Assembly (NCBI RefSeq): GCF_017052655.1
Contig: NZ_JAFIDC010000001.1
Location: 1,054,001-1,118,000, forward strand
Reading direction: 5' to 3'
Source of the DNA: Acholeplasma equirhinis
GTDB taxonomy: Bacteria; Bacillota_I; Bacilli_A; Acholeplasmatales; Acholeplasmataceae
Length of the DNA: 64,000 nucleotides
Shown here: positions 19,191-59,812 of the stretch, piece after piece
Numbering within the stretch: position 1 is the stretch's first letter
Layout: the number at the start of each line of letters is the position of its first letter
Translations under genes and position numbers: made by a program
Notes under the pieces: generated by a model
Told to the model about the DNA's origin: nothing
The model's input: the letters and a program-made list of their open reading frames with translations, nothing else
The model's database searches: none

Positions 19191-19652
19191 TTACTTACCC
19201 GTAAACGGGTCTTTATACTCCTTGATGCTCTTCTTATCCGCTAGTTGATCATCTAACTCTTGGTTCCTGATATAATTTGCTACTGTTTGCTTGTTTAGAC
19301 CTACGGTCGAAACGTAGTATCCTTCTGACCAGAAGTGTCGAGATCCATAGTTGTATTTCAAATTAACATGCTCGTCAAAAATCATCAAACTACTTTTCCC
19401 TTTCAAATACCCCATGAATGAACTTAATGCTAGTTTTGGTGGTATCTTGACGAGCATGTGGATATGATCTGACATTGCATGTGCCTCGACTATTTCCACG
19501 CCTTTGTATTCACACAGGCGTCGAATGTACTTGCCAATATCACTTCTCAACTTTGCATAGATCGCTTTTCGTCGATACTTTGGTGTGAAGACTATGTGGT
19601 ATTGGCAGTTCCACCTTGTATGTGATAAACTACTTGTATCATCGTTCTTCAT
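19191..19652 (-). CDS. tnpA: IS200-type transposase TnpA
   Basis: A 153-residue Y1 HUH single-strand transposase. CQYHIVFTPKYRRKAIY is the usual N-terminal strand and substrate region, HIHMLVKIPP holds the metal-binding His-x-His, and the catalytic tyrosine is expected in VANYIRNQ near the C-terminus. The length is the family norm. The ATG lies at 19650-19652. AAGGAGG is 17 bases upstream, a loose spacing, and it can be hidden in a hairpin (see the regulatory entry). This copy appears intact. Confidence 0.93.
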   Translation of the reverse strand: MKNDDTSSLSHTRWNCQYHIVFTPKYRRKAIYAKLRSDIGKYIRRLCEYKGVEIVEAHAMSDHIHMLVKIPPKLALSSFMGYLKGKSSLMIFDEHVNLKYNYGSRHFWSEGYYVSTVGLNKQTVANYIRNQELDDQLADKKSIKEYKDPFTGK

Positions 19653-46836: not shown

Positions 46837-48213
46837 TTATTTTTTGATTGATATGAATCCCAAATATGTAATTGATTTAGAAGTACCATCTTGATTTTGG
46901 ATTTTACCTTCAAATCGATAGGTTAGAATAATGTTATCTCTTGCTGAATTTTCTTGGAATGTTCGAATGATGTACTCAACTTTGATGGTTAAGATACCAC
47001 CCTCAAATACATAATCAGTATCTTTAATACCATTACCTGATACCGATACAAATTCTGCCCCAAATAAATCAAATCCAAAGACAATATCATCATGGAAATT
47101 TGTTTTTATATTTTTATCAGAGTATATGTATGGTTTTTCATCATCTGATAAATTAATAGTGATTGTGTGTTGACCTGCATTTGTTTGTAATTCAAATGTG
47201 AACACACTTTGTTTATCCATTTTTTGGATACTCTTTAATATATTTAAATATTCTGATTTTAAATAAACTGTATTTTCTAAAATATATAAATATTTTGTAT
47301 CAACAGCTTCTTTTTTAATCTCTTCTGTTTCTTCATCTTCAATTAATCGATAAAACTCAAATTGATTTACAGAACGCATATAATACGTAAAGAGTGGTAA
47401 ATCAAAGTGTGAGAATAGACTATAGGTATAACTATGTGAAGTTTGAATTAGATCATTTTCATCAATAATGATATTAAGCATTTCTGAGAACTCAGAATCG
47501 ATATAAGTATCGCTCATCGATTTAATACGGATTGCATATTCTCCTGGTGTAAAAAGTGGTACAATTTGAGTTCTTGTATCGTATTCAACACCATTGATTT
47601 CAATGATATGATAGCTTGCATTTGGATCTTTAAGATAAGTTAATACACCATTCACCACATTAATTAAAGTTGGTGGATTTAAATATCGATACTTTAATTC
47701 AACAAGTTCACTATAATCTGAATCAATATAAACACTTGAAACTGCTTTAATTCTTACCATATATGTTCCAGGTTCTAGTTTTGGTAAATCATCCGTTTCA
47801 GAGTTATATTCAACACCATCAATTTCAATCACGAAACTATCTGCATCAGGATCACCTGAATAAATAATTTCATTGCCATCTAATTCAATATCTGTTGGAA
47901 CTGATAAATATTTAACAGTGACCTTAACCATATCTGAAAAAAGCGAATCTAAATATCCTTCACCTACTGCTTTGACTCTTACATTGTAGATTCCTTCTTC
48001 GGTCAATTCTAAGAAAGGTTCTTCTGTTTCAATGTTTATACCATTTGCATTAAAAATGTATTTATCTGCATTATAAATCGCTCCAAAAGAGATCGTATTT
48101 TTATAAACTGTTAAACCAATTGGTTTATCAAGTCTATCCAATCCGACACCTCTTGAACATGCAGAAAGTATGAGTGTAAATAGTAAAACTATAATTAAAA
48201 GTGATCGCTTCAT
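46837..48213 (-). CDS. Surface lipoprotein with three fibronectin III-like repeats
   Basis: About 458 residues from the ATG after GGGAG. The signal ends in lipobox LSAC (near residue 18). Three repeats of about 75 residues follow (up to residue 245), each containing an EINGVEY- or FNANGIN-like strand and ending SLFSDMVKVTVKYL, SDYSELVELKYRYL or SEFSEMLNIII, the layout of Ig/FN3-like domains. The last 200 residues are of unknown fold. A surface binding role is likely, but the ligand is unknown. It converges with catE, 12 bases apart. Confidence 0.75.
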   Translation of the reverse strand: MKRSLLIIVLLFTLILSACSRGVGLDRLDKPIGLTVYKNTISFGAIYNADKYIFNANGINIETEEPFLELTEEGIYNVRVKAVGEGYLDSLFSDMVKVTVKYLSVPTDIELDGNEIIYSGDPDADSFVIEIDGVEYNSETDDLPKLEPGTYMVRIKAVSSVYIDSDYSELVELKYRYLNPPTLINVVNGVLTYLKDPNASYHIIEINGVEYDTRTQIVPLFTPGEYAIRIKSMSDTYIDSEFSEMLNIIIDENDLIQTSHSYTYSLFSHFDLPLFTYYMRSVNQFEFYRLIEDEETEEIKKEAVDTKYLYILENTVYLKSEYLNILKSIQKMDKQSVFTFELQTNAGQHTITINLSDDEKPYIYSDKNIKTNFHDDIVFGFDLFGAEFVSVSGNGIKDTDYVFEGGILTIKVEYIIRTFQENSARDNIILTYRFEGKIQNQDGTSKSITYLGFISIKK

Positions 48214-48373
48214 AAGATCTCCCATTTTATGATACTCATATTATAACATTTTTTCGAATTGGAAATATTTAAATTGTAAGTGTTTTCTTTAAGAAAAAAA
48301 ACAAATAATCTTCAATTTCAATAAATTTGGTGTTTTCAATATATAAAACTCTTAATAAAGCCATTTATAAGTA

Positions 48374-48417: not shown

Positions 48418-49845
48418 TTAAATTGTATAAGGTACTTCTGGGTCACCAAAGCTGAAGAATATTTCAGCAAAGTCACCATCATAATAGAAATCAATAAATG
48501 GATTTCTGTTACCTTGATTTTGATGAATCTTATTATTTCTTGCAACTTCTTCTGGTGACACTGGATCGAGTTTATTCCATTCTAATAATACATTTAAATA
48601 TCCATAATAAATTGAACCTTTAACTGCATTTGAGTCACCTTCATTAACAAGTGTTAAATGCGGATATGTTAACGTCATATAGAATAAGGCTCTAGCGATA
48701 TCACCAATATATTCATCCCCTGGATAGAATAATTGGCCATTTCTATTTGGATTACCGGTTGTACCAGTATTTCCAAAATAGTGGTCAGAGTGTAAGCTTT
48801 GATTAGCTGTACGTTCAGCATTCCACATATTATGTAAATCACTGTAATGTCCACGTTCAGTACCACTTGGTCTATCATCAAAACTTCCTGTGTTAATAAC
48901 AAAACTTGTAAACTTATCTAAGCGTCTTGCACTATTTTCTGGTCTAATTTGCATGTTATTTGCTGGCCAGATATGTTCTCTATCAACATTTACACCATTA
49001 GGTCCAGTACCATTTGTTACCCAACCTGTTGTAATCCATCCACCTTCAAATACATAATCAGTTATATCGTATAAGATATATTGTCCACCTTTTCTAGTGC
49101 TTAAGACCCAGTTATATTCTGTTGAAGTATTATAACCTTTATATGAAGTCAGTGTATTTCTTAAAATACCTGCAAATGTTGTAATCATTTGATTATCTGT
49201 CGTTGCCCCAGATAAAGCATTGTAATATCCATTAAATCCTGAATATTCAAAATCTAATAAACTTGGTTGTGATTCTACAACAATAATTGAAAGTTTTAAT
49301 GTAGCTGAATTACCAGCCTCATCTTCAACTGACCAAGTTACTTCGTATTCACCAACAATAGTGAATACATATTGATTGCCAACTAAATAACTTTGAATCA
49401 TTGAACCATCATATTCAACTTGATCTGTTAAATCGCCATCAACATTATCATTTGCAGTAACAGTTGGTAAACTCCAATTTGAATTCATTGAAACTGTCAC
49501 TGGATTTGTTGCTGGATTTAAACTAATTACTGGTGCTGTCGTATCTTCACCCAATGCATTCCATTTAGCATATAAAGTAAAATCAGCACTTACTGGAAAA
49601 TTAAAATTAAATGGCATATCTTCAGTTGTTGTATACCAATGAACAAATTCATAACCGGATCTGGTTGGATTTGCTGGTTCCACAACCTTCTCTCCAAATT
49701 CAAGTACTTGCGCAGGTACAGCTGAACCACCATTTGAATCAAATGTAACAGTATATGTTTCTACTGGTGTTATTGGTTGATTATTACATGCAACAAGAAT
49801 GAAAATTAGTAGTAAGCTTGATATAAAAGTAAATACTTTTTTCAT
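48418..49845 (-). CDS. Lipoprotein endonuclease I-type nuclease
   Basis: 475 residues. Lipobox LVAC near residue 20; then one InlB-type (Listeria-Bacteroides) repeat (TYTVTFDSNGGSAV to TLYAKW, about 30-95); an Ig-like DUF5011 domain (TAPVISLNPATNPVTVSM to WSVEDEAGN, about 100-190); and a C-terminal endonuclease I (EndA/Vvn) domain with REHIWPANNM, HYSDLHNMW and the conserved RNNKIHQNQGNRNPFID. The nuclease likely degrades external DNA or RNA for nucleotide uptake. A second protein with the same final domains lies at 51745-55349. Confidence 0.88.
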   Translation of the reverse strand: MKKVFTFISSLLLIFILVACNNQPITPVETYTVTFDSNGGSAVPAQVLEFGEKVVEPANPTRSGYEFVHWYTTTEDMPFNFNFPVSADFTLYAKWNALGEDTTAPVISLNPATNPVTVSMNSNWSLPTVTANDNVDGDLTDQVEYDGSMIQSYLVGNQYVFTIVGEYEVTWSVEDEAGNSATLKLSIIVVESQPSLLDFEYSGFNGYYNALSGATTDNQMITTFAGILRNTLTSYKGYNTSTEYNWVLSTRKGGQYILYDITDYVFEGGWITTGWVTNGTGPNGVNVDREHIWPANNMQIRPENSARRLDKFTSFVINTGSFDDRPSGTERGHYSDLHNMWNAERTANQSLHSDHYFGNTGTTGNPNRNGQLFYPGDEYIGDIARALFYMTLTYPHLTLVNEGDSNAVKGSIYYGYLNVLLEWNKLDPVSPEEVARNNKIHQNQGNRNPFIDFYYDGDFAEIFFSFGDPEVPYTI

Positions 49846-50624: not shown

Positions 50625-51358
50625 AATAAAAATCCGCGTCTTCAAGGCGCGGTTTTTCTCACACGCCTACAAGGCTTTATTACTGGCGACCCCCATTTGA
50701 GGGTCTTTTTATTTGCCCAATTGCCTTTGACACTCTTACTTACCCGTAAACGGGTCTTTATACTCCTTGATGCTCTTCTTATCCGCTAGTTGATCATCTA
50801 ACTCTTGGTTCCTGATATAATTTGCTACTGTTTGCTTGTTTAGACCTACGGTCGAAACGTAGTATCCTTCTGACCAGAAGTGTCGAGATCCATAGTTGTA
50901 TTTCAAATTGGCATGCTCGTCAAAAATCATCAAACTACTTTTCCCTTTCAAATACCCCATGAATGAACTTAATGCTAGTTTTGGTGGTATCTTGACGAGC
51001 ATGTGGATATGATCTGACATTGCATGTGCCTCGACTATTTCCACGCCTTTGTATTCACACAGGCGTCGAATGTACTTGCCAATATCACTTCTCAACTTTG
51101 CATAGATCGCTTTTCGTCGATACTTTGGTGTGAAGACTATGTGGTATTGGCAGTTCCACCTTGTATGTGATAAACTACTTGTATCATCGTTCTTAATTGT
51201 TCTGATGATAGAATCCTCCTTGGTTTAATTTGGTGTAAGGCAATTGGTCATTACCATTATACCAACCAAGAGGATTCTTTTTGTTTATCCCTACTGCTCC
51301 TTTGATTCCACCCGCATAGCAGGTGGTTTTATGTTAGTCTACGACCAACATAATAAAA
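50625..51358 (-). mobile_element. IS200-type insertion sequence, copy 2
   Basis: Same 734-base unit as 19080-19813 with three differences: one changes the tnpA start codon and two adjacent ones change a Val codon to Ala. The end hairpins are intact. This copy also abuts the T-tract of a terminator (that of the zinc-ribbon gene at 51409). Confidence 0.9.
50736..51197 (-). pseudogene. tnpA: IS200-type transposase lacking its start codon
   Basis: The reading frame is intact and nearly identical to copy 1, but the start codon is ATT (51195-51197) instead of ATG. The next in-frame ATG (at 51095) would remove 34 residues, including the first strand QYHIVFTP of the HUH fold, though HIHMLV and the tyrosine region remain. 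ATT initiation is rare, so this copy is probably silent but its ends could still be mobilised by the intact transposase acting in trans. Confidence 0.75.
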
Positions 51359-51744: not shown

Positions 51745-52752
51745 TTAATTATAAATTCTTTGTACTAATTCAGGATGATCAATAAATGGATTTCTATTCC
51801 CTTGATATCCATAAATAACTTCATTTCTATGTAATTCAAAAGCATCTACTGGATCAGCTAAATGCCATGCAATGAAGGTATCTAAGAAACCAATTTTTGT
51901 AATATCCGTTAGATTACCCCATCTGATATCCATATAGAATATGATTCTAGCAACATCTCCACGGTGATTATCACCAGGATACCACATACTATTATATAAT
52001 CCAAATCCATCTACATGTGTAATTAAGTTAGTGAATTTGAAATTATTTCTAGTTGAGTTCACATTGGTATCAGCTGCACGAAGATTGTGCATATCTGCAT
52101 CAACACCTCGTGTATTATTATTTGGATCATATCCACCATTACCAATTAATGATTTAGCCCAAACATGTTCTCTATTCCATGTTGTAGATGAACCTTCCCA
52201 TGTTGGTATACCATATCCATCTAAAGGAAATCCATTACCTGATGAACCTCTTAAAGTATCAGAATAAATTAAATACATATAATCTGTATTTAATCCTACC
52301 CAAACATCTGATTCTTCCATGATATATCTAGAATCACCATATGTTGTTGAAACAGGACTAATATCATTAAGTAAAACATATAATGCATCAATTAATTCCT
52401 CATCATCAAGTCCATCTAAAGTAGCATAATAACCTGAATAAGAAGGATTAGGGTCTGAAGCGGTAACTTCAATAATTAAAGTAAATCTACCTTCATTACC
52501 AGCTTCATCATATACAAACCAACTTATTTCATATTCACCTTGTTCAGTAAATATATAGACTTGATTCATAGCATTATAAAATTGATTGATTATTGAAGTA
52601 TCTACTTCAATATAATTTGTTAAGTCACCGTCAATATTATCTACTGCGGTAGCAGTAGGTAATACAAATTCATCCCCTATTGACAGTTGAACCGGACTTA
52701 TGAGGTCCGGCTCAATTTCAATTATCGGTGATTCGTTATCTTCAATAGGGTT
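51745..52752 (-). pseudogene. 3' part of a large secreted nuclease: DUF5011 and endonuclease I domains
   Basis: An open frame of 335 codons with no usable start near its beginning. The first part (about 60 codons, INPIEDNESPIIEIEPD onward) is an Ig-like DUF5011 domain similar to that at 48418; next comes the endonuclease I domain with NREHVWAKSL, DADMHNLRAAD, RNNFKFTN and GYQGNRNPFID. It continues the upstream gene but is one base out of frame. One extra C in the CCCC run (GGGG at 52760-52763 on the plus strand) would join them. The first in-frame ATG (52569) would omit most of DUF5011 but keep the nuclease domain. Confidence 0.8.
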
Positions 52753-55349
52753 TATGACTGGGGAACTTCAACCATTTCAATAATAATTCCTGAAAGTCTA
52801 AATTGAGTTGTAGCAGATGTTGTATTTTGAATAATAAATTCTGTACTATTTACACCTGTGAAATTTGCATATATAAAATTCATCGAATTTGTAATTGCAT
52901 TATTTGTTGCAGAAATATTATTAATGAATGTTGCTGTGCCTGATTTTGCAGTTATATTTCCAGCTGTTTGTCCGCTTGATGGGAATAAGAGTGTAATACT
53001 TACAATCTCATAACCTTCTTTTGTTTTGATTTCGAATGAGTTACCATTTCCATTGTTCGCACCATAAAATCTTGCAGCACTTCCAGATGTAAAATATTTA
53101 GGACCTTGCGTGTTACTATTGTTTTGCTTTGCTGTAAACGTAAAGTATTCAGTGATATCGTAATTAAATACGGATCCGTTTAAAACAGTATCATTTCCTA
53201 CAACTGAGAAATTTGATGTGAATACATATGTTTGTTGAGCACTACCTGACCAACGAGCAAATAATGTGAATGAACTATTTACTGGTGAATTAAAATCATA
53301 TTCAGATCCACCAGTTGGAGCAGTATACCAACCTTCAAAATCAACTCCATCTTTAGTAGGATTATCAGGAATCTCTACTAAGAATCCAATATAATCGGTT
53401 TGTGGTTCAATTGATCCATTACCACCTTGTAAATCAAATGTAACTGTATATTTTGGCAATTCTTGATAGATAGCATATATTGTTATATCATGTAAAATTG
53501 GTGTGTTTATGAAAATGAACTCTTGTCCACCTTCTGGTGAAGTAAACCAACCTACAAAAGTATGATTGTCTGGAGCAGTCGGTGAGCCTGGATAAGGTGC
53601 ATAGTATCCATCAAATACATTTTGAGTAGGATACCAATTTAATGAATTAGATGTTCCGTCTCCAATTTCTAGTGTCACTTGATGTTGCTCTAAATCATCA
53701 AATTTAGCAAAAAGAACTAAATGTGAGTTTATTGCAGAGGATGTATTGAACTCAACATCATATTCTTGATCTTTAAATAATCCAATAAAGTATTTGCCAT
53801 GCGGTGGAACGAGTGTGTAACCTACTAAATTACTGTTCTTTACAACTTCTAATGTATCTATAATTTCTTTATTTTCACCCAATACAGTTATTTTATATAA
53901 TTTTGTATCTAAATTTGAACTTAAATTTATATCGTCTACATTTATTCTATCGCCACCAGATTTTGAGATTTTAACATTAACTAAAGTTGATGAACTTATT
54001 TCAAATTGTGTAGTTAAATCAAATGTAAATAATGCTAAAGTGGTAGAAGAAACTGTAATAGGTGTACCAACATTTTGCCATGCTCCACCATCAAGTTTAA
54101 CTTGAATGGTCATTGTTGCATTGTTATCAGAACCATATTTTGCATAGAAGAAAGAAATACTCGTTAAACCATAAATTCCATCTTTGAGTTCTAAATAACC
54201 TGTTGATTGAATACGTGCTGCTTTTGTACCATTTTTTCTATCATTGGCTGCGTTTCCAACAAGTGCATTATTTAATGTCCAATCTAATCCATTCATTTTT
54301 AAATCATCAGAAGCATACCCTGTCTTGTTGGCAGTTTCAAAATCAAATAGAATTGATGTGGATTGAATGATAAAGTTATTATCACTATAAACAGTTGTAC
54401 CATCACTAAACACTGCATAAGCTCTAAATGAAGTAAATTCATTTTCAAGAATTGATCTTAAGAATTCATTATTTGGTGACATAATAGTTGATGGTAAAAC
54501 TTCAACATCATCTGATTCTAAAGTCAGAACTTCAACTTTATTTGATGCTAACATACCAAATTCAACTAATGTTGCTTCTGTATTGTTTTCAACATAACCA
54601 ACAAATGATTGATAACCTTCACGAATACCTGATACATTGTATAGGTATACACTTGGACCTTCTGGAACATCTTCACCAAATACTGCTTGTAAAGTTACAG
54701 GTCTTAAAGCTGTAAATTTATAGTTAGGATTTGCTGATACGAATTGTCCATCTTCATCTACCCAATATGAGAAATCACCTTCAATAGGTGTTAATTCAAC
54801 GACTTCATTATATTTAGGGAATTCAGGATCAGCTGAACCACCTAAAATTTCGATTTCTACATCTGCAGTGCTTGCTTGATATTTTGCAACATAAACATCA
54901 TTTTTACCAAATGATTGTAATAATTGCCAACCATCAAATGCTAAACCTGGTTTAGATGGTGTTACACCATCATATTCAAGTTCCTCAGCATCACCATATG
55001 CATAATCTAATACTTTACCATTAGTATCAATCCATACAACAGAATCATCTGATGCATGTTCTAATACCATAGTTACATATGTTGATTTTGAATTGACAAA
55101 TTGTCTTGCTGAAGCATCACTTACTTGACCATTATAGATATGATAAACATATCCTGATAGTCCAAATGACACATTAGTTAATTCACCATATGTTCCATTA
55201 AACTCAACTGGATCCATTCCTTCACCAGGAGCAATAACTTGAACATAAAGTGTAGCTTCATCATCTTCAGCAGCAAATGCAGGTTGTGCATAAGTGCTAA
55301 CAAATAGAAGTGCAACTAAACTTAAAAATAAAATGCTTAATTTTTTCAT
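52752..55349 (-). CDS. Large secreted protein with InlB-type repeats (5' part of a split nuclease)
   Basis: 865 residues from the ATG at 55349. A cleavable signal peptide ends AQPAFA-AE. An N-terminal region (to about 250) has unusual beta-rich modules; a jelly-roll-like domain follows (about 330-480, STSILFDFETANKTG onward). Then there are InlB-type repeats (FVGWFTSPEGG, FEGWYTAPTGGSEYDF) and a final beta domain ending GIIIEMVEV. The frame stops shortly after, where the DUF5011-endonuclease domains continue in another frame. Translationally coupled to the 40-residue peptide gene 15 bases upstream. Confidence 0.75.
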   Translation of the reverse strand: MKKLSILFLSLVALLFVSTYAQPAFAAEDDEATLYVQVIAPGEGMDPVEFNGTYGELTNVSFGLSGYVYHIYNGQVSDASARQFVNSKSTYVTMVLEHASDDSVVWIDTNGKVLDYAYGDAEELEYDGVTPSKPGLAFDGWQLLQSFGKNDVYVAKYQASTADVEIEILGGSADPEFPKYNEVVELTPIEGDFSYWVDEDGQFVSANPNYKFTALRPVTLQAVFGEDVPEGPSVYLYNVSGIREGYQSFVGYVENNTEATLVEFGMLASNKVEVLTLESDDVEVLPSTIMSPNNEFLRSILENEFTSFRAYAVFSDGTTVYSDNNFIIQSTSILFDFETANKTGYASDDLKMNGLDWTLNNALVGNAANDRKNGTKAARIQSTGYLELKDGIYGLTSISFFYAKYGSDNNATMTIQVKLDGGAWQNVGTPITVSSTTLALFTFDLTTQFEISSSTLVNVKISKSGGDRINVDDINLSSNLDTKLYKITVLGENKEIIDTLEVVKNSNLVGYTLVPPHGKYFIGLFKDQEYDVEFNTSSAINSHLVLFAKFDDLEQHQVTLEIGDGTSNSLNWYPTQNVFDGYYAPYPGSPTAPDNHTFVGWFTSPEGGQEFIFINTPILHDITIYAIYQELPKYTVTFDLQGGNGSIEPQTDYIGFLVEIPDNPTKDGVDFEGWYTAPTGGSEYDFNSPVNSSFTLFARWSGSAQQTYVFTSNFSVVGNDTVLNGSVFNYDITEYFTFTAKQNNSNTQGPKYFTSGSAARFYGANNGNGNSFEIKTKEGYEIVSITLLFPSSGQTAGNITAKSGTATFINNISATNNAITNSMNFIYANFTGVNSTEFIIQNTTSATTQFRLSGIIIEMVEVPQS

Positions 55350-55363
55350 TTTACTTACCCCCA

Positions 55364-55486
55364 CTACATTTCTTCGAAGAAACCAGCACCGTGTTGGCCA
55401 ACTGACTCTGCGATTGAGTTCTTAGTATTGAACTCAATAATTTCAATCATGGGTACTTCATATTGTTTCTTGTTTTCAGTAGACAT
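55364..55486 (-). CDS. 40-residue peptide, possible RiPP precursor
   Basis: The peptide begins MSTENKKQYEVPMIEIIEF and ends VGQHGAGFFEEM. It has AAGGAG 11-12 bases before the ATG (55484-55486), a promoter and operator-like repeats upstream. The opening K-x-Y-x-x-P-x-I-E-I-I-E-F resembles leaders of many short Firmicute peptides found with PqqD-like and peptidase genes; the Gly/His/Phe tail would be the product part. Its TAG is 15 bases before the start of the large secreted protein. PqqD-like, kinase-like and peptidase genes lie 2.8-4.4 kb upstream on the same strand. The precursor role is inference. Confidence 0.6.
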   Translation of the reverse strand: MSTENKKQYEVPMIEIIEFNTKNSIAESVGQHGAGFFEEM

Positions 55487-55531
55487 GACAAAAAAATCTC
55501 CTTTTTTACATTTTTTCCCATCTTTATGCTT

Positions 55532-55581
55532 ATTCTATCATACATTACTTTAAAAGTAATGGTAATTAGTAATTAGTTACC
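55532..55581 (-). promoter_or_regulatory. Promoter and two inverted repeats before the peptide gene
   Basis: Minus strand TTACTT (55554-55559), 16-base spacer, TAGAAT (55532-55537) with TG before it. A 17-base inverted repeat ATTACTTTAAAAGTAAT (55544-55560) covers the -35, and GGTAA-11 nt-TTACC (55561-55581) adjoins it. The peptide-nuclease operon is probably regulated on its own. Confidence 0.6.
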
Positions 55582-55617
55582 TTGATTGTAAACATTTTCA
55601 TTTAATAAAAATGGATT

Positions 55618-56085
55618 TTATTTCATATTTTTGAAAACTTTGTATTCCTTGTATAGTTTTTTTAACTCATATATAGGATCTAATACACTTTCAACTGCTA
55701 AAACTATTGATACTAAGAAAATTACAACAACAAATGCTGTTGGTAAATCAAACCCTATTGCACTTAACCCAAGTAAAATGATAATCATCATTTTAGAAAC
55801 AAGATAAATTGGTTGAACAATAAAGTATATTTTTTTTTGCATACACCAATCATATGTTCTTTCAGAATATTTACCACTCTTCTCAAAAATAGGAGCACTC
55901 GAAGTTACGATAAAAAATATAATGGCATAGCCAATACATTTAGTTATTGAGTTTATCTCTGTACCATATGCTTGCACTAAATTAGGTGGAATAACACCAA
56001 TCATCGCCAATAGAAATAAAACCGGAGCACCTATAACCACTATCAAAAAGCCAAGTACAATCAGTGAAACTTTAATTTTTCTCAT
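55618..56085 (-). CDS. Membrane protein of unknown function
   Basis: About 155 residues from the ATG seven bases after GGAGG. Four hydrophobic helices (about 7-30, 45-65, 80-100, 108-128) and a lysine-rich end (YELKKLYKEYKVFKNMK). It lies between the proline-repeat lipoprotein and the peptide gene. I do not recognise the family; a transport or immunity role for the peptide is possible but unsupported by motif. Confidence 0.65.
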   Translation of the reverse strand: MRKIKVSLIVLGFLIVVIGAPVLFLLAMIGVIPPNLVQAYGTEINSITKCIGYAIIFFIVTSSAPIFEKSGKYSERTYDWCMQKKIYFIVQPIYLVSKMMIIILLGLSAIGFDLPTAFVVVIFLVSIVLAVESVLDPIYELKKLYKEYKVFKNMK

Positions 56086-56162
56086 ATGCATACCTCCATT
56101 CACTATAATTAATTATTCAACATATTTTAAATAAAAAAAAACAACATGCTTAATAAAAATAA

Positions 56163-56187
56163 AGGATGAGTTTTTTGACTCATCCTT
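56163..56187 (-). terminator. Terminator of the proline-repeat lipoprotein gene
   Basis: GGATGAGT/ACTCATCC 8-bp stem followed by TTTATTTTTATT on the minus strand. Confidence 0.85.
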
Positions 56188-56210
56188 CGTTTTTAATTGT
56201 TATTGATCAA

Positions 56211-58226
56211 TTATAACCATTCAATTGGAATATAATATCCACCAACATAGATTAATACGAATACGTCTGTACCAGGGTACATACCGTCTTCACCCCATGT
56301 AGCAGAGTAAGCTTGCATAACCGCAACATTGATTTGTAATTCGCCTGCAAGTTCTGCAAGTGTTTCGAACATACCTTCTAAGTATTCATTTCCAGCAAGT
56401 TCAGCATCGTTTGCGATTAACTCGATTGAAAGTAAGTTATCGAAATCACCTGAACCATATTCAATTGCATCAAATGCAGTTTCATATAATTCGATGTATT
56501 CAACAACTTCATATAATGAACCTGTTTTACCAACGAATAATACAAGTGGAATATCTTCTTCTGTTAAAACAACAAAAGCTTCCATTGTATCAACACCATA
56601 TGCATCAGCATAGTCAGCTAATGTATAATCAGCATACCATTCAGCATAAATAGCTGTATCAGCAGTTTTTGATAAGAATGTTAATTCAGCTTCTGCTAAG
56701 AATGCATCAATTGCTTCTTGTGCAGTTGCAGCACCTGTTGGTTCTGGTTGTTCATCACCACCACCACCGTTGCCACCTGAACCGTCGCCATTTGACCACT
56801 TGAAGTTGTCAAATACAGCTTGTTGGTTACCAGCATCACCTACTGCATAAATTTTAACTTTAACAGTACCTGATAATGCTTGACCTGGATATACGAAAGT
56901 ATAAACATTTGCTTGAACGCCTGAACCTTCACCGAAGTTAGGTAATGCATAAGTTGTTGTTGTACCATTAGCAGTTACATCAACTTTATAAGTTCTGATT
57001 CTTCCACCAGTATAACCTTTACGATATTCAAATGAGAATCCAGCTAAACCATTAGTGAATGTACCTTCTAATGAAGATGGTTCATCTGAACGTCTTAATA
57101 ATACTGATTTACCACTAATTGCATAGTTACCATCAGTACCTTGAGCAGCATTCATTGCATGAACCCAATTCCATGTTACACCTTGTGCAGTGTATGAACC
57201 ATCACCATAATTTGCTCCTAATGCAGTTGCACCATCAAAAGTTTCAGTGAATGCATAATTTACAGGATTTGGATCGCCTGGGTTTGGATCTCCAGGATTT
57301 GGATCCCCAGGGTTAGGGTCGCCTGGATTTGGGTCACCAGGATTTGGATTTTCACCAGGTACGCCATAAACTTTCATGTTGTCAACAACCATACGAGCTG
57401 AGTTAGAAACTGCAGCATCAGATGCAAGTTGAGTACCATTTACGAAGAATCTAAATTCATGACCTTCTTGTAATTCATCTAATTCAAATGTTACAAATGA
57501 AGCTGAACTATTTTGTTGTAAGAAGTCAACTAGAGTTACCCAGTTAGCTCCAACTTTAACTTCGAATTTAGCTTCTGTCATTTGTTCAACGTCTAATTCA
57601 GACCACATTCTTTGTTCGAACTCAATCTTAGTAACTTCTTCAGCGAATACAAACACTAAGTAAGCACCAGTATCTGATTTAGATGAACCTGATAAGACTA
57701 GGCCTTCGCCACCTTGAGCAGTGTTAACTCTCTTCTTAGCTACTGGGAAGTTTGAGTTATTCACTTGGTTCTTTAAGTTACCAGTAGGTGCAGCGTCTGA
57801 ATAGCCGTGGCTTAATTCTGAACCATCAAAGATGAATGAATATAATAATTCACCTTCAACTTGAGATGCTTCTTTAGCTTTTACAACTACTTGGAATGTT
57901 TTATTCTTTTGTTTGCCATCTAAAGAAACAATAGCAGTCACCGATACTGTAACATCTTCATCTTTTCTAGTTACATTGGCATTTGTACCAGTAATAGAAA
58001 TAATTGATGGATTAGATGTTAACCATGTAATGGTTGCTCCATCGACTTCAGTTACAACTGTAAAGTTCTTAGTAACTGAGTCCTTGTTATCACCTTCTGC
58101 AAATGTGAGTTGTAGATTAGCTACAATTGTATCCAGTGGAGATGTTTCTTCTTCTACTGGAGTATCACACGCAATAAGGATAAACGAAATTAAAAATAAC
58201 GCGATAAAACTTAGTAATTTCTTCAT
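56211..58226 (-). CDS. Surface lipoprotein with Ig-like, carbohydrate-binding-like and PNPGD-repeat regions
   Basis: 671 residues from the ATG after AAGGAAG. Lipobox LIAC near residue 20. Then an Ig-like BIG_2-type domain (ITWLTSNPSIISITG), a beta-rich domain with VVDNMKVYG, a PNPGD linker (five repeats), a second beta-sandwich-like domain (FTETFDGATALG to VFDNFKWSNGD), a Gly-rich hinge and a C-terminal module (AQEAIDAFLAEAELTF onward) with a DUF4358-like character, uncertain. The paired domains resemble the jelly-roll parts of the neighbouring nuclease. Likely cell-surface binding. It lies next to the peptidase-PqqD-kinase operon but has its own promoter region. Confidence 0.72.
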   Translation of the reverse strand: MKKLLSFIALFLISFILIACDTPVEEETSPLDTIVANLQLTFAEGDNKDSVTKNFTVVTEVDGATITWLTSNPSIISITGTNANVTRKDEDVTVSVTAIVSLDGKQKNKTFQVVVKAKEASQVEGELLYSFIFDGSELSHGYSDAAPTGNLKNQVNNSNFPVAKKRVNTAQGGEGLVLSGSSKSDTGAYLVFVFAEEVTKIEFEQRMWSELDVEQMTEAKFEVKVGANWVTLVDFLQQNSSASFVTFELDELQEGHEFRFFVNGTQLASDAAVSNSARMVVDNMKVYGVPGENPNPGDPNPGDPNPGDPNPGDPNPGDPNPVNYAFTETFDGATALGANYGDGSYTAQGVTWNWVHAMNAAQGTDGNYAISGKSVLLRRSDEPSSLEGTFTNGLAGFSFEYRKGYTGGRIRTYKVDVTANGTTTTYALPNFGEGSGVQANVYTFVYPGQALSGTVKVKIYAVGDAGNQQAVFDNFKWSNGDGSGGNGGGGDEQPEPTGAATAQEAIDAFLAEAELTFLSKTADTAIYAEWYADYTLADYADAYGVDTMEAFVVLTEEDIPLVLFVGKTGSLYEVVEYIELYETAFDAIEYGSGDFDNLLSIELIANDAELAGNEYLEGMFETLAELAGELQINVAVMQAYSATWGEDGMYPGTDVFVLIYVGGYYIPIEWL
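57261..57350 (-). repeat. Tandem 15-bp repeats coding for PNPGD
   Basis: Five PNPGD units and a partial sixth with variable third bases, so the unit is old enough to have diverged. A flexible inter-domain linker; unit number may vary between strains by slippage. Confidence 0.9.
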
Positions 58227-58300
58227 TTTTACTTCCTTTTTTATTTTATTGTGTTTGTGATTATAATAACATACATTTATGTATTTTTTCACAAAAAAAT

Positions 58301-58322
58301 ATACAAGTTTTCACTTGTATAC
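58301..58322 (-). terminator. Terminator of the kinase-PqqD-peptidase operon
   Basis: TATACAAG/CTTGTATA 8-bp stem with a six-base loop, followed by seven T, directly after the peptidase stop codon. Confidence 0.88.
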
Positions 58323-58739
58323 TCATTTTCGAATTAATTTAAGTAAAACACGTCTCAAAGGTGTAAAAAATAGCCAAACTTTAACCTTAAAGTTATAGTT
58401 TTTAGAATTTTTTCCAGGTGTTTCAAACCTGATAACTTTTGCAAATATCTTATCCTTAGTTACAATCTCTTTTCGGAATGCACCATCACCGCGGATAACA
58501 TAGTTATCACCTTTGATTTTAATGATTCTATGAAGGATAATTTGTCCTTCATATTCAAATAAAACAACATCTAGTTTTTGATAACTTTCTGCCTTTTTTA
58601 AAGTAACAATTGTTTGATCATGTTTATAAAAGGGTAGCATTGAGTTACCCATGACTTTTAGTTCAACTTCTTGACCTAAGTTAAGATGTTCTTTTGCTAG
58701 ATTAAACAGTTCATTATTGTCTACTTTAACAGTCTTCAA
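58323..58739 (-). CDS. S24/S26-family signal-peptidase-like protein
   Basis: 138 residues. VMGNSMLPFYKHDQTIV (residues 29-45) matches the nucleophile motif GxSMxP, with Ser33; DVVLFEYEGQIILHRII places His70 where SipW-type peptidases have His rather than Lys; YVIRGDGAFRK gives Asp85. The C-terminal KVWLFFTPLRRVLLKLI may lie on the membrane. Such proteins cleave signal or leader peptides; here the context (PqqD-like and kinase-like genes) suggests leader cleavage of a small peptide. It follows the PqqD-like gene by four bases. Confidence 0.8.
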   Translation of the reverse strand: MKTVKVDNNELFNLAKEHLNLGQEVELKVMGNSMLPFYKHDQTIVTLKKAESYQKLDVVLFEYEGQIILHRIIKIKGDNYVIRGDGAFRKEIVTKDKIFAKVIRFETPGKNSKNYNFKVKVWLFFTPLRRVLLKLIRK

Positions 58740-58743
58740 AAAA

Positions 58744-59007
58744 TTACTCCATGATATTTCTTTCTTTTAAAATATTCACAAATTTTAAAACATCTGCAGC
58801 AGCAACTTCTGCTGATACATCATATTCATCAACGAGTTTTTTCGTTAAATCTTCTAATGAAATTTCTTCTTTTAAATTTTCAAATAAAAACTTTCCAGTT
58901 TCATTTAAAGTTAACATACCATGAAACTTAACTGCTTCTTGTCCAATAGGTACAACAATAAATTGATCTCCTACTGTTTTTAATACATATTCACTTTTGA
59001 CTTTCAT
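58744..59007 (-). CDS. PqqD-like (RRE-domain) protein
   Basis: 87 residues from the ATG at 59007, one base after the kinase-like stop, with GGAG upstream. MLTLNETGKFLFENL followed by SLEDLTKKLVDEYDVSAEVAAADVLKFVNILKE is the PqqD winged-helix pattern. PqqD-type domains bind the leader of ribosomal precursor peptides and hand them to modifying enzymes. The cluster lacks a radical-SAM, cyclase or YcaO gene; the only potential modifier in the operon is the HPr-kinase-like protein. Confidence 0.88.
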   Translation of the reverse strand: MKVKSEYVLKTVGDQFIVVPIGQEAVKFHGMLTLNETGKFLFENLKEEISLEDLTKKLVDEYDVSAEVAAADVLKFVNILKERNIME

Positions 59008-59008
59008 G

Positions 59009-59812
59009 TTATTCTCCATAGATTGCTTTTTTAATTTGTCTTGCAGCATTGAGTGATAATGATGCATCTAAATGGTAAATAGGAACTTGTTTTAAGATAA
59101 CTTCAAATAATTTAAGCATGTTATCCCATAACGCTTCTTCCGTAGGACGAAGCGTATTGGTTACTAAGTTCTTTAATGCTTCTTTTTGATCTAACTTTGT
59201 AACTTCATCTGTAATACCTTGTTGAAGGAATACGATAGCCTTTAATGGTAATTTCTTATTAGTATTTGAACTGTATTGTCCACTGAATGGTGCACCATAT
59301 ACAAAGATACCATCTTCATTAATTTCTAAAATAGGTTTATCATCATTAACCCAAGTGACATCATCACCAAAGAGTTGTTTCCACATTCTTGCATGCGTAG
59401 ACTTACCTGTTCCACTTGGTGCTGAGAATAATATAACATCACCTTTATATGATATAGCTGATCCATGAAGTGGTAACAATCCATGACGTTGTGCAAGTTC
59501 TAAGAATACCATACCAGTATAGACATATTCAGCAGTTGCAACATCTTGGAAAGTATCTTCATCTATCCAGATTTCTATATTCTTATAACCTTCATCATAA
59601 GTCATGTATGATTTTAATCCAGATACACTCTTAGAGAAGATTCGATACATACCTGATTGAGGCATGTCTAGTGTTTCTTTATATTTAACAACAATGGTAT
59701 GATCTACAGGTTCATCACCATCATAACGATACGCTTCTATGTTGTTTTTAAAATACTTGTCGTAGGTATATTCAAACGCTATTTTGATACCTGCTATTAA
59801 ATACTTATTCAT
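59009..59812 (-). CDS. HPr-kinase-like P-loop protein
   Basis: 267 residues. HGSAI (116-120), the P-loop APSGTGKST (131-139) and WVNDDKPIL (154-162) match the HPr kinase/phosphorylase core. The N-terminal 110 residues are not the usual HPrK domain. Proteins of this kind occur beside PqqD-like and peptidase genes; in some lasso-peptide clusters the relative phosphorylates a precursor serine. Here the 40-residue peptide holds serines at 2, 24 and 28. The true HPr regulator role is less likely, given the missing N-terminal domain and the context. It has an extended -10 TGTTATAAT upstream. Confidence 0.8.
   Translation of the reverse strand: MNKYLIAGIKIAFEYTYDKYFKNNIEAYRYDGDEPVDHTIVVKYKETLDMPQSGMYRIFSKSVSGLKSYMTYDEGYKNIEIWIDEDTFQDVATAEYVYTGMVFLELAQRHGLLPLHGSAISYKGDVILFSAPSGTGKSTHARMWKQLFGDDVTWVNDDKPILEINEDGIFVYGAPFSGQYSSNTNKKLPLKAIVFLQQGITDEVTKLDQKEALKNLVTNTLRPTEEALWDNMLKLFEVILKQVPIYHLDASLSLNAARQIKKAIYGE

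Follow-up and report, generated by a model that had tools for sequence, protein, structure and literature searches.

Among described systems, those closest to the locus considered here are the linear polyphosphorylated peptides (LPP), known from the lpp cluster of Paenibacillus alginolyticus (Popov et al., Nat Commun, May 2026; PMC13381572). There, the RRE LppB binds the YxxP leader of the precursor (its N33 and D70 holding the leader Tyr and Pro), the HprK-like kinase LppK phosphorylates Ser3 of the core, and the SpI-type peptidase LppS depends on the RRE to cut the leader. The leader consensus reads YxxPxVLxHQxIxFETxxS, with Ser3 at Y+18 and the cut between Thr and Ala of T-A-Q-S, and the cluster also encodes a nucleotidyltransferase (LppN) and an MsbA-like exporter (LppD). 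LPP clusters are often found in capsule loci, and the final products were not identified in that study. Kinase and nucleotidyltransferase are also present in paeninodin-type clusters (PMC13381572), and these phosphorylated lasso peptides have the RRE, the HPrK-like kinase, the nucleotidyltransferase and a [YW]xxP leader in common with the system described below.

The window (i.e. the whole stretch of 64,000 nucleotides of Acholeplasma equirhinis DNA that was analysed) contains three genes that resemble the LPP core enzymes:

59009..59812, minus strand: HPrK/PEPCK-fold kinase, LppK-like, 267 aa (motifs, AlphaFold model)
58744..59007, minus strand: stand-alone RRE of the PqqD family, LppB-like, 87 aa (PF05402, RRE profile)
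58323..58739, minus strand: putative leader peptidase of the S26/S24 fold, LppS-like, 138 aa, TTG start (PF00717, TIGR02228/02227)

The initial annotation had described these as a tightly packed HPr-kinase-like, PqqD-type and signal-peptidase-like trio, which is borne out: the genes run head to tail in the order kinase, RRE, peptidase, separated by 1 and 4 bases. The kinase carries the Walker A motif SAPSGTGKST, H116 and NDDK156-159, all kept in relatives, and its AlphaFold model (pLDDT 93) matches PEPCK as well as HPr kinase/phosphatase structures (1knx, 1jb1, 2qmh). The RRE reaches 57 bits against Pfam PqqD (PF05402), and a profile made from 18 relatives picks up TbiB1 and TfuB1 (both lasso RREs), PbaB1 of the paeninodin type and LppB of LPP (structures 5v1u, 6jx3, 9x90 and 9x8z, the last being LppB itself), with 34.8 bits for TbiB1 and 22.6 bits for LppB, which is a comparison of scores and not a tree. 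LppB is missed by phmmer with the single RRE sequence and found with the profile. Residues N35, D72 and F76 of the window RRE align to N33, D70 and F74 of LppB, and D72 is invariant in 18 homologues. The peptidase residues Ser33/His70/Asp85, already singled out by the initial annotation, are invariant across all 24 homologues; the structure model of the peptidase (pLDDT 91) matches the signal peptidase SpsB and LexA, and phmmer returned no solved relative. The kinase and the PqqD-like protein also resemble those of the SynChlorMet cassette (ScmC/ScmD, TIGR04249/TIGR04248), with sub-threshold matches that lie far under the curated cut-offs, and no radical SAM partner was noticed nearby.

The peptide presumed to be handled by these enzymes is encoded further along the same strand, in the following surroundings:

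56211..58226, minus strand: lipoprotein with an atrophied Ig domain (Pfam aBig_2), 671-693 aa, between trio and peptide
56161..56188, minus strand: terminator-like hairpin, an 11-bp stem followed by a T-rich tail
55364..55486, minus strand: precursor peptide, 40 aa, family conserved in RRE-carrying relatives
52752..55349, minus strand: secreted partner protein, 865 aa, starting 14 bases after the precursor stop
46837..48225, minus strand: lipoprotein; about 15 related loci have a homologue close to the trio (neighbourhood cluster 3; tblastn E 2e-55)

That the peptide lies downstream of the trio on the same strand is correct, yet two unrelated genes (for the aBig_2 lipoprotein and for a membrane protein of 157-161 aa) and the hairpin intervene. 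Because of these two genes and the strength of the terminator-like hairpin, the peptide gene probably forms a transcription unit separate from the trio. The aBig_2 lipoprotein, a singleton in neighbourhood clustering whose place is not conserved, is probably outside the machinery. Beyond the partner gene, two Endonuclease I (PF04231) proteins are encoded near the trio (48421-49845, with a lipoprotein-type N terminus, and 51748-52569, both on the minus strand), and roughly half of the trio loci in relatives show the motif too. The window also holds two IS200/IS605-type Y1 transposase copies on the minus strand (19194-19652 and 50739-51197; 98.7% identical), the latter of which has an open frame of 119 codons only and looks broken.

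The precursor gene has an AAGGAG ribosome-binding site and encodes a leader with YEVPMIEIIEFNTKNSI, a predicted core AESVGQHGAGFFEEM and a candidate phosphoacceptor, Ser28. The leader is of the YxxPxI type (Tyr9, Pro12), i.e. the RRE-binding type, and a conserved serine stands where the LPP kinase acts; the start of the peptide was rightly recognised as leader-like. In the loci that were read, the leader common to the relatives' peptides is K/E-x-Y-x-x-P-x-[IL]-E-[IV]-x-E-F. Of 42 precursors, 31 have the serine at Y+19 and 9 have it at Y+18, the latter mostly belonging to a second precursor type (type B, as opposed to type A). The RRE is present in 24 of 61 related genomes, and the peptide profile (E <= 0.01) is found in 18 of these 24 relatives compared to none of the 37 without RRE (Fisher p ~1e-10; this and the other co-occurrence p-values given here overstate independence, the genomes being kin). 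Across the whole order (160 genomes), a precursor occurs in 44 of 56 RRE-positive genomes versus 5 of 104 others (Fisher p ~1e-22), there being five genomes with the peptide in which the RRE was undetected. The association is far beyond chance, and the peptide belongs with the trio. The two patterns named beforehand as speaking against this, namely a trio that is widespread without the peptide or a peptide lost where the trio is kept, are not what the relatives display. In G004, an RRE-positive relative (86% complete) that has the whole trio, no precursor was detected. In another (G005, locus L029, C14:61355-61468), which keeps RRE and peptidase, the precursor gene contains an in-frame TAA and is either decaying or affected by a sequencing error.

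A further regularity, which is a new observation, is that the precursors are paired with secreted proteins. For 30 of the 38 precursors with readable downstream sequence, the next gene starts at most 30 bases from the precursor stop, and 29 of these 30 close downstream genes encode a signal-peptide-like N terminus, compared to 35.5% of neighbouring genes (binomial p ~2e-12, signal peptides being called by our own hydrophobicity rule). Precursor type goes with partner type: proteins after type-A precursors have an N-terminal domain in common (FAFWVVNGVVRxDL ... VVFxDSNG), while those after type-B precursors mostly contain GASIRTxGxQGLRFYA. The 865-aa partner in the window has a signal peptide, the N-terminal domain common to other type-A partners and Listeria-Bacteroides repeats. 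No clear Pfam family was found for this N-terminal domain, which is weakly like divergent InlB B-repeats; matches to it above 50 bits come from 14 relatives, all of them RRE-positive (p ~9e-8). The pairing is not absolute, 4 of 21 strong type-A domain matches being without a YxxP peptide in front. In the window genome itself, a fifth type-A partner-domain protein (L213, G000 C1:554117 region) follows an unrelated 43-aa ORF without YxxP peptide, the stop of the ORF and the start of the protein nearly touching.

With the precursor stop overlapping or nearly touching the exoprotein gene start in 30 of 38 cases, it could be argued that the short ORF serves the secreted protein as a regulatory or coupling uORF and that the trio has another target. 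This seems quite unlikely, since it is the amino acids (Y, P, E, S) that are conserved, matching RRE-binding leaders, and since the peptide strictly co-occurs with the RRE; moreover, some relatives (loci L046, L050) have the peptide ahead of the kinase instead of an exoprotein, and Clostridia have similar peptides beside the core genes. The tight pairing of precursor type and exoprotein type could also mean that the enzymes modify the secreted proteins, with the peptide as a guide that brings them to the nascent exoprotein. The exoproteins, however, have signal peptides of the usual kind and lack a YxxP leader, and in the known relative LPP it is the peptide core that is phosphorylated and its leader that is cut (PMC13381572), which makes such a guide very improbable.

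Beyond the window, the genome contains five precursors in total (C1:15122, 510338, 605826, 953012 and 1109358), one of which has YxxS instead of YxxP, and a single RRE, which must therefore act in trans if all five are substrates. Each of the five precursor genes lies immediately before a secreted-protein gene. A nucleotidyltransferase of the LppN type (PF14907) is encoded at C1:97059-97706 (153.8 bits), unlinked to the trio, as is the case throughout this genus. Nevertheless unlinked, PF14907 (>100 bits) is found in 21 of 24 RRE-positive versus none of 37 RRE-negative relatives (p ~2e-13). Its neighbours in the window genome include Polysacc_synt_2 and bacterial sugar-transferase genes, a polysaccharide setting that fits the frequent location of LPP clusters in capsule loci (PMC13381572). 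At a second locus (L084), a type-B precursor and a secreted protein are encoded together with a fusion of kinase and S24/S26 peptidase (367 aa) and a GHL10 protein; this second kinase of the genome was confirmed. The GHL10 protein, glycosyl-hydrolase-like and secreted (L084:10136-12736), comes right after the fused kinase-peptidase, an order also seen in the relative G007; in G003 it comes after an unfused kinase. With an unlinked nucleotidyltransferase, a second kinase-peptidase locus and four more precursors in the genome, the system cannot be called minimal, as had been proposed.

The kinase-peptidase fusion occurs in the window genome and in G007, and four relatives have a fusion of kinase and RRE (in one of them with Pfam PqqD at the C terminus), which indicates that the parts belong to one pathway. 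In a distant genome from another family of Bacilli (L202), a single protein of 383 aa is matched by the kinase profile as well as by that of the S26 peptidase, so that the kinase-peptidase fusion is not limited to this genus. As to export, no LppD-type transporter is linked to the trio in the window, and genome-wide there are only 13 generic exporters (23-35% identity, with about 28% for the best match); in several relatives a transporter is linked to the trio.

Genome-wide searches also bear on the idea of a degenerate lasso-peptide pathway, in which RRE, kinase and nucleotidyltransferase were kept and the cyclase is encoded elsewhere. It would agree with the shared YxxP leader, with an RRE profile closest to lasso B1 proteins and with the paeninodin-type enzyme set, but it was rejected as hardly credible because the genome lacks the transglutaminase-like leader peptidase B2 (PF13471), having an S26-type peptidase instead, because its only match to an asparagine-synthetase-like cyclase (PF00733) is marginal and partial (21.4 bits over 63 positions), and because the cores lack an acidic residue at a constant position for ring closure.

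The comparison with LPP is thus the most informative one. As in LPP, a discrete RRE lies beside an SpI-type peptidase and an HprK-like kinase; the RRE residues N33/D70 correspond to N35/D72 in the window; leaders are of the form YxxPx[VI] with a conserved serine 18-19 residues after the tyrosine; and a PF14907-type nucleotidyltransferase (unlinked here) and an association with polysaccharide genes are present. On the other hand, the window-type leaders have YxxPx[IL] and the serine spacing but not HQxIxFET, the predicted core is about 15 residues compared to 45 in LPP, five dispersed precursors paired with secreted proteins are set against one RRE, enzymes are fused (kinase-peptidase and kinase-RRE), no transporter is linked in the window, and the host lineage is wall-less and absent from the main text of PMC13381572. 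Since the full leader consensus (HQxIxFET) and the linked transporter are missing, the system is, judged by its sequences, an LPP-like variant and not LPP sensu stricto. The kind of system is therefore already known (PMC13381572), and what is new is the use of one machine in trans, the dispersed precursors, the exoprotein partners and the fused enzymes.

Nor is the core set confined to this organism. Although it had been regarded as unusual in a mollicute, it was found again in Acholeplasmataceae, other Bacilli and Clostridia. One scan of a genome collection gave 80 named loci with the kinase, mostly from Clostridia of gut and rumen, with Peloplasma aerotolerans (Acholeplasmataceae) in addition. 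The kinase is accompanied by the RRE in 60 of these loci, by the peptidase in 48, by an exporter in 37 and by the nucleotidyltransferase in 24; in several, there are peptides such as MEKYETPVMEVIEFETEDVITTSDDDDITMPEI in which the spacing of the serine is unchanged. When 395 Bacilli were searched with an LppB segment of 56 residues, ten weak matches were obtained, most of them in loci that also have the kinase and/or the peptidase.

Given the homology to LPP and the co-inheritance of the parts, it is highly probable that trio and precursor form an LPP-like RiPP maturation system, the individual steps of which (binding, phosphorylation, cleavage and capping) are modelled on the homologous enzymes. 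The PqqD-type RRE would bind the precursor (40 residues) through its YxxPxI leader and present it to kinase and peptidase. The HPrK-like kinase would phosphorylate Ser28, which stands at Y+19, and the S26-type peptidase would remove the leader, most likely between Ile25 and Ala26; both positions are predicted because type A reads I-A-x-S where LPP has T-A-Q-S. The initial annotation had the peptide cleaved at export, but leader cleavage is RRE-dependent in the published LPP, so that here it probably takes place in the cytoplasm. The released linear core would carry one or more phosphates, probably capped by the unlinked LppN-family nucleotidyltransferase. The same RRE may serve the four other precursors in trans, including one that comes with a fused kinase-peptidase of its own. 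Precursor and secreted surface protein would be made together, and the mature peptide probably acts outside the cell, with the exoprotein or on surface glycan, although its role with the exoprotein is conjecture.

The most promising clue to the function of the peptide is its pairing with secreted proteins. One tentative possibility, somewhat less likely than its opposite, is that a RiPP machine acting in trans makes phosphopeptides, each of which is a dedicated partner (ligand, tag or anchor) of the exoprotein encoded by the next gene, possibly linked to glycan via the nucleotidyltransferase. If true, this would be the first functional context for LPP-type peptides, whose role PMC13381572 leaves open. 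The pairing and the strictly co-inherited, unlinked nucleotidyltransferase among polysaccharide genes give a testable context, in which the phosphopeptide would be joined to surface proteins or glycans. As these are the outermost layer in wall-less bacteria, the system would be open to study without a cell wall.
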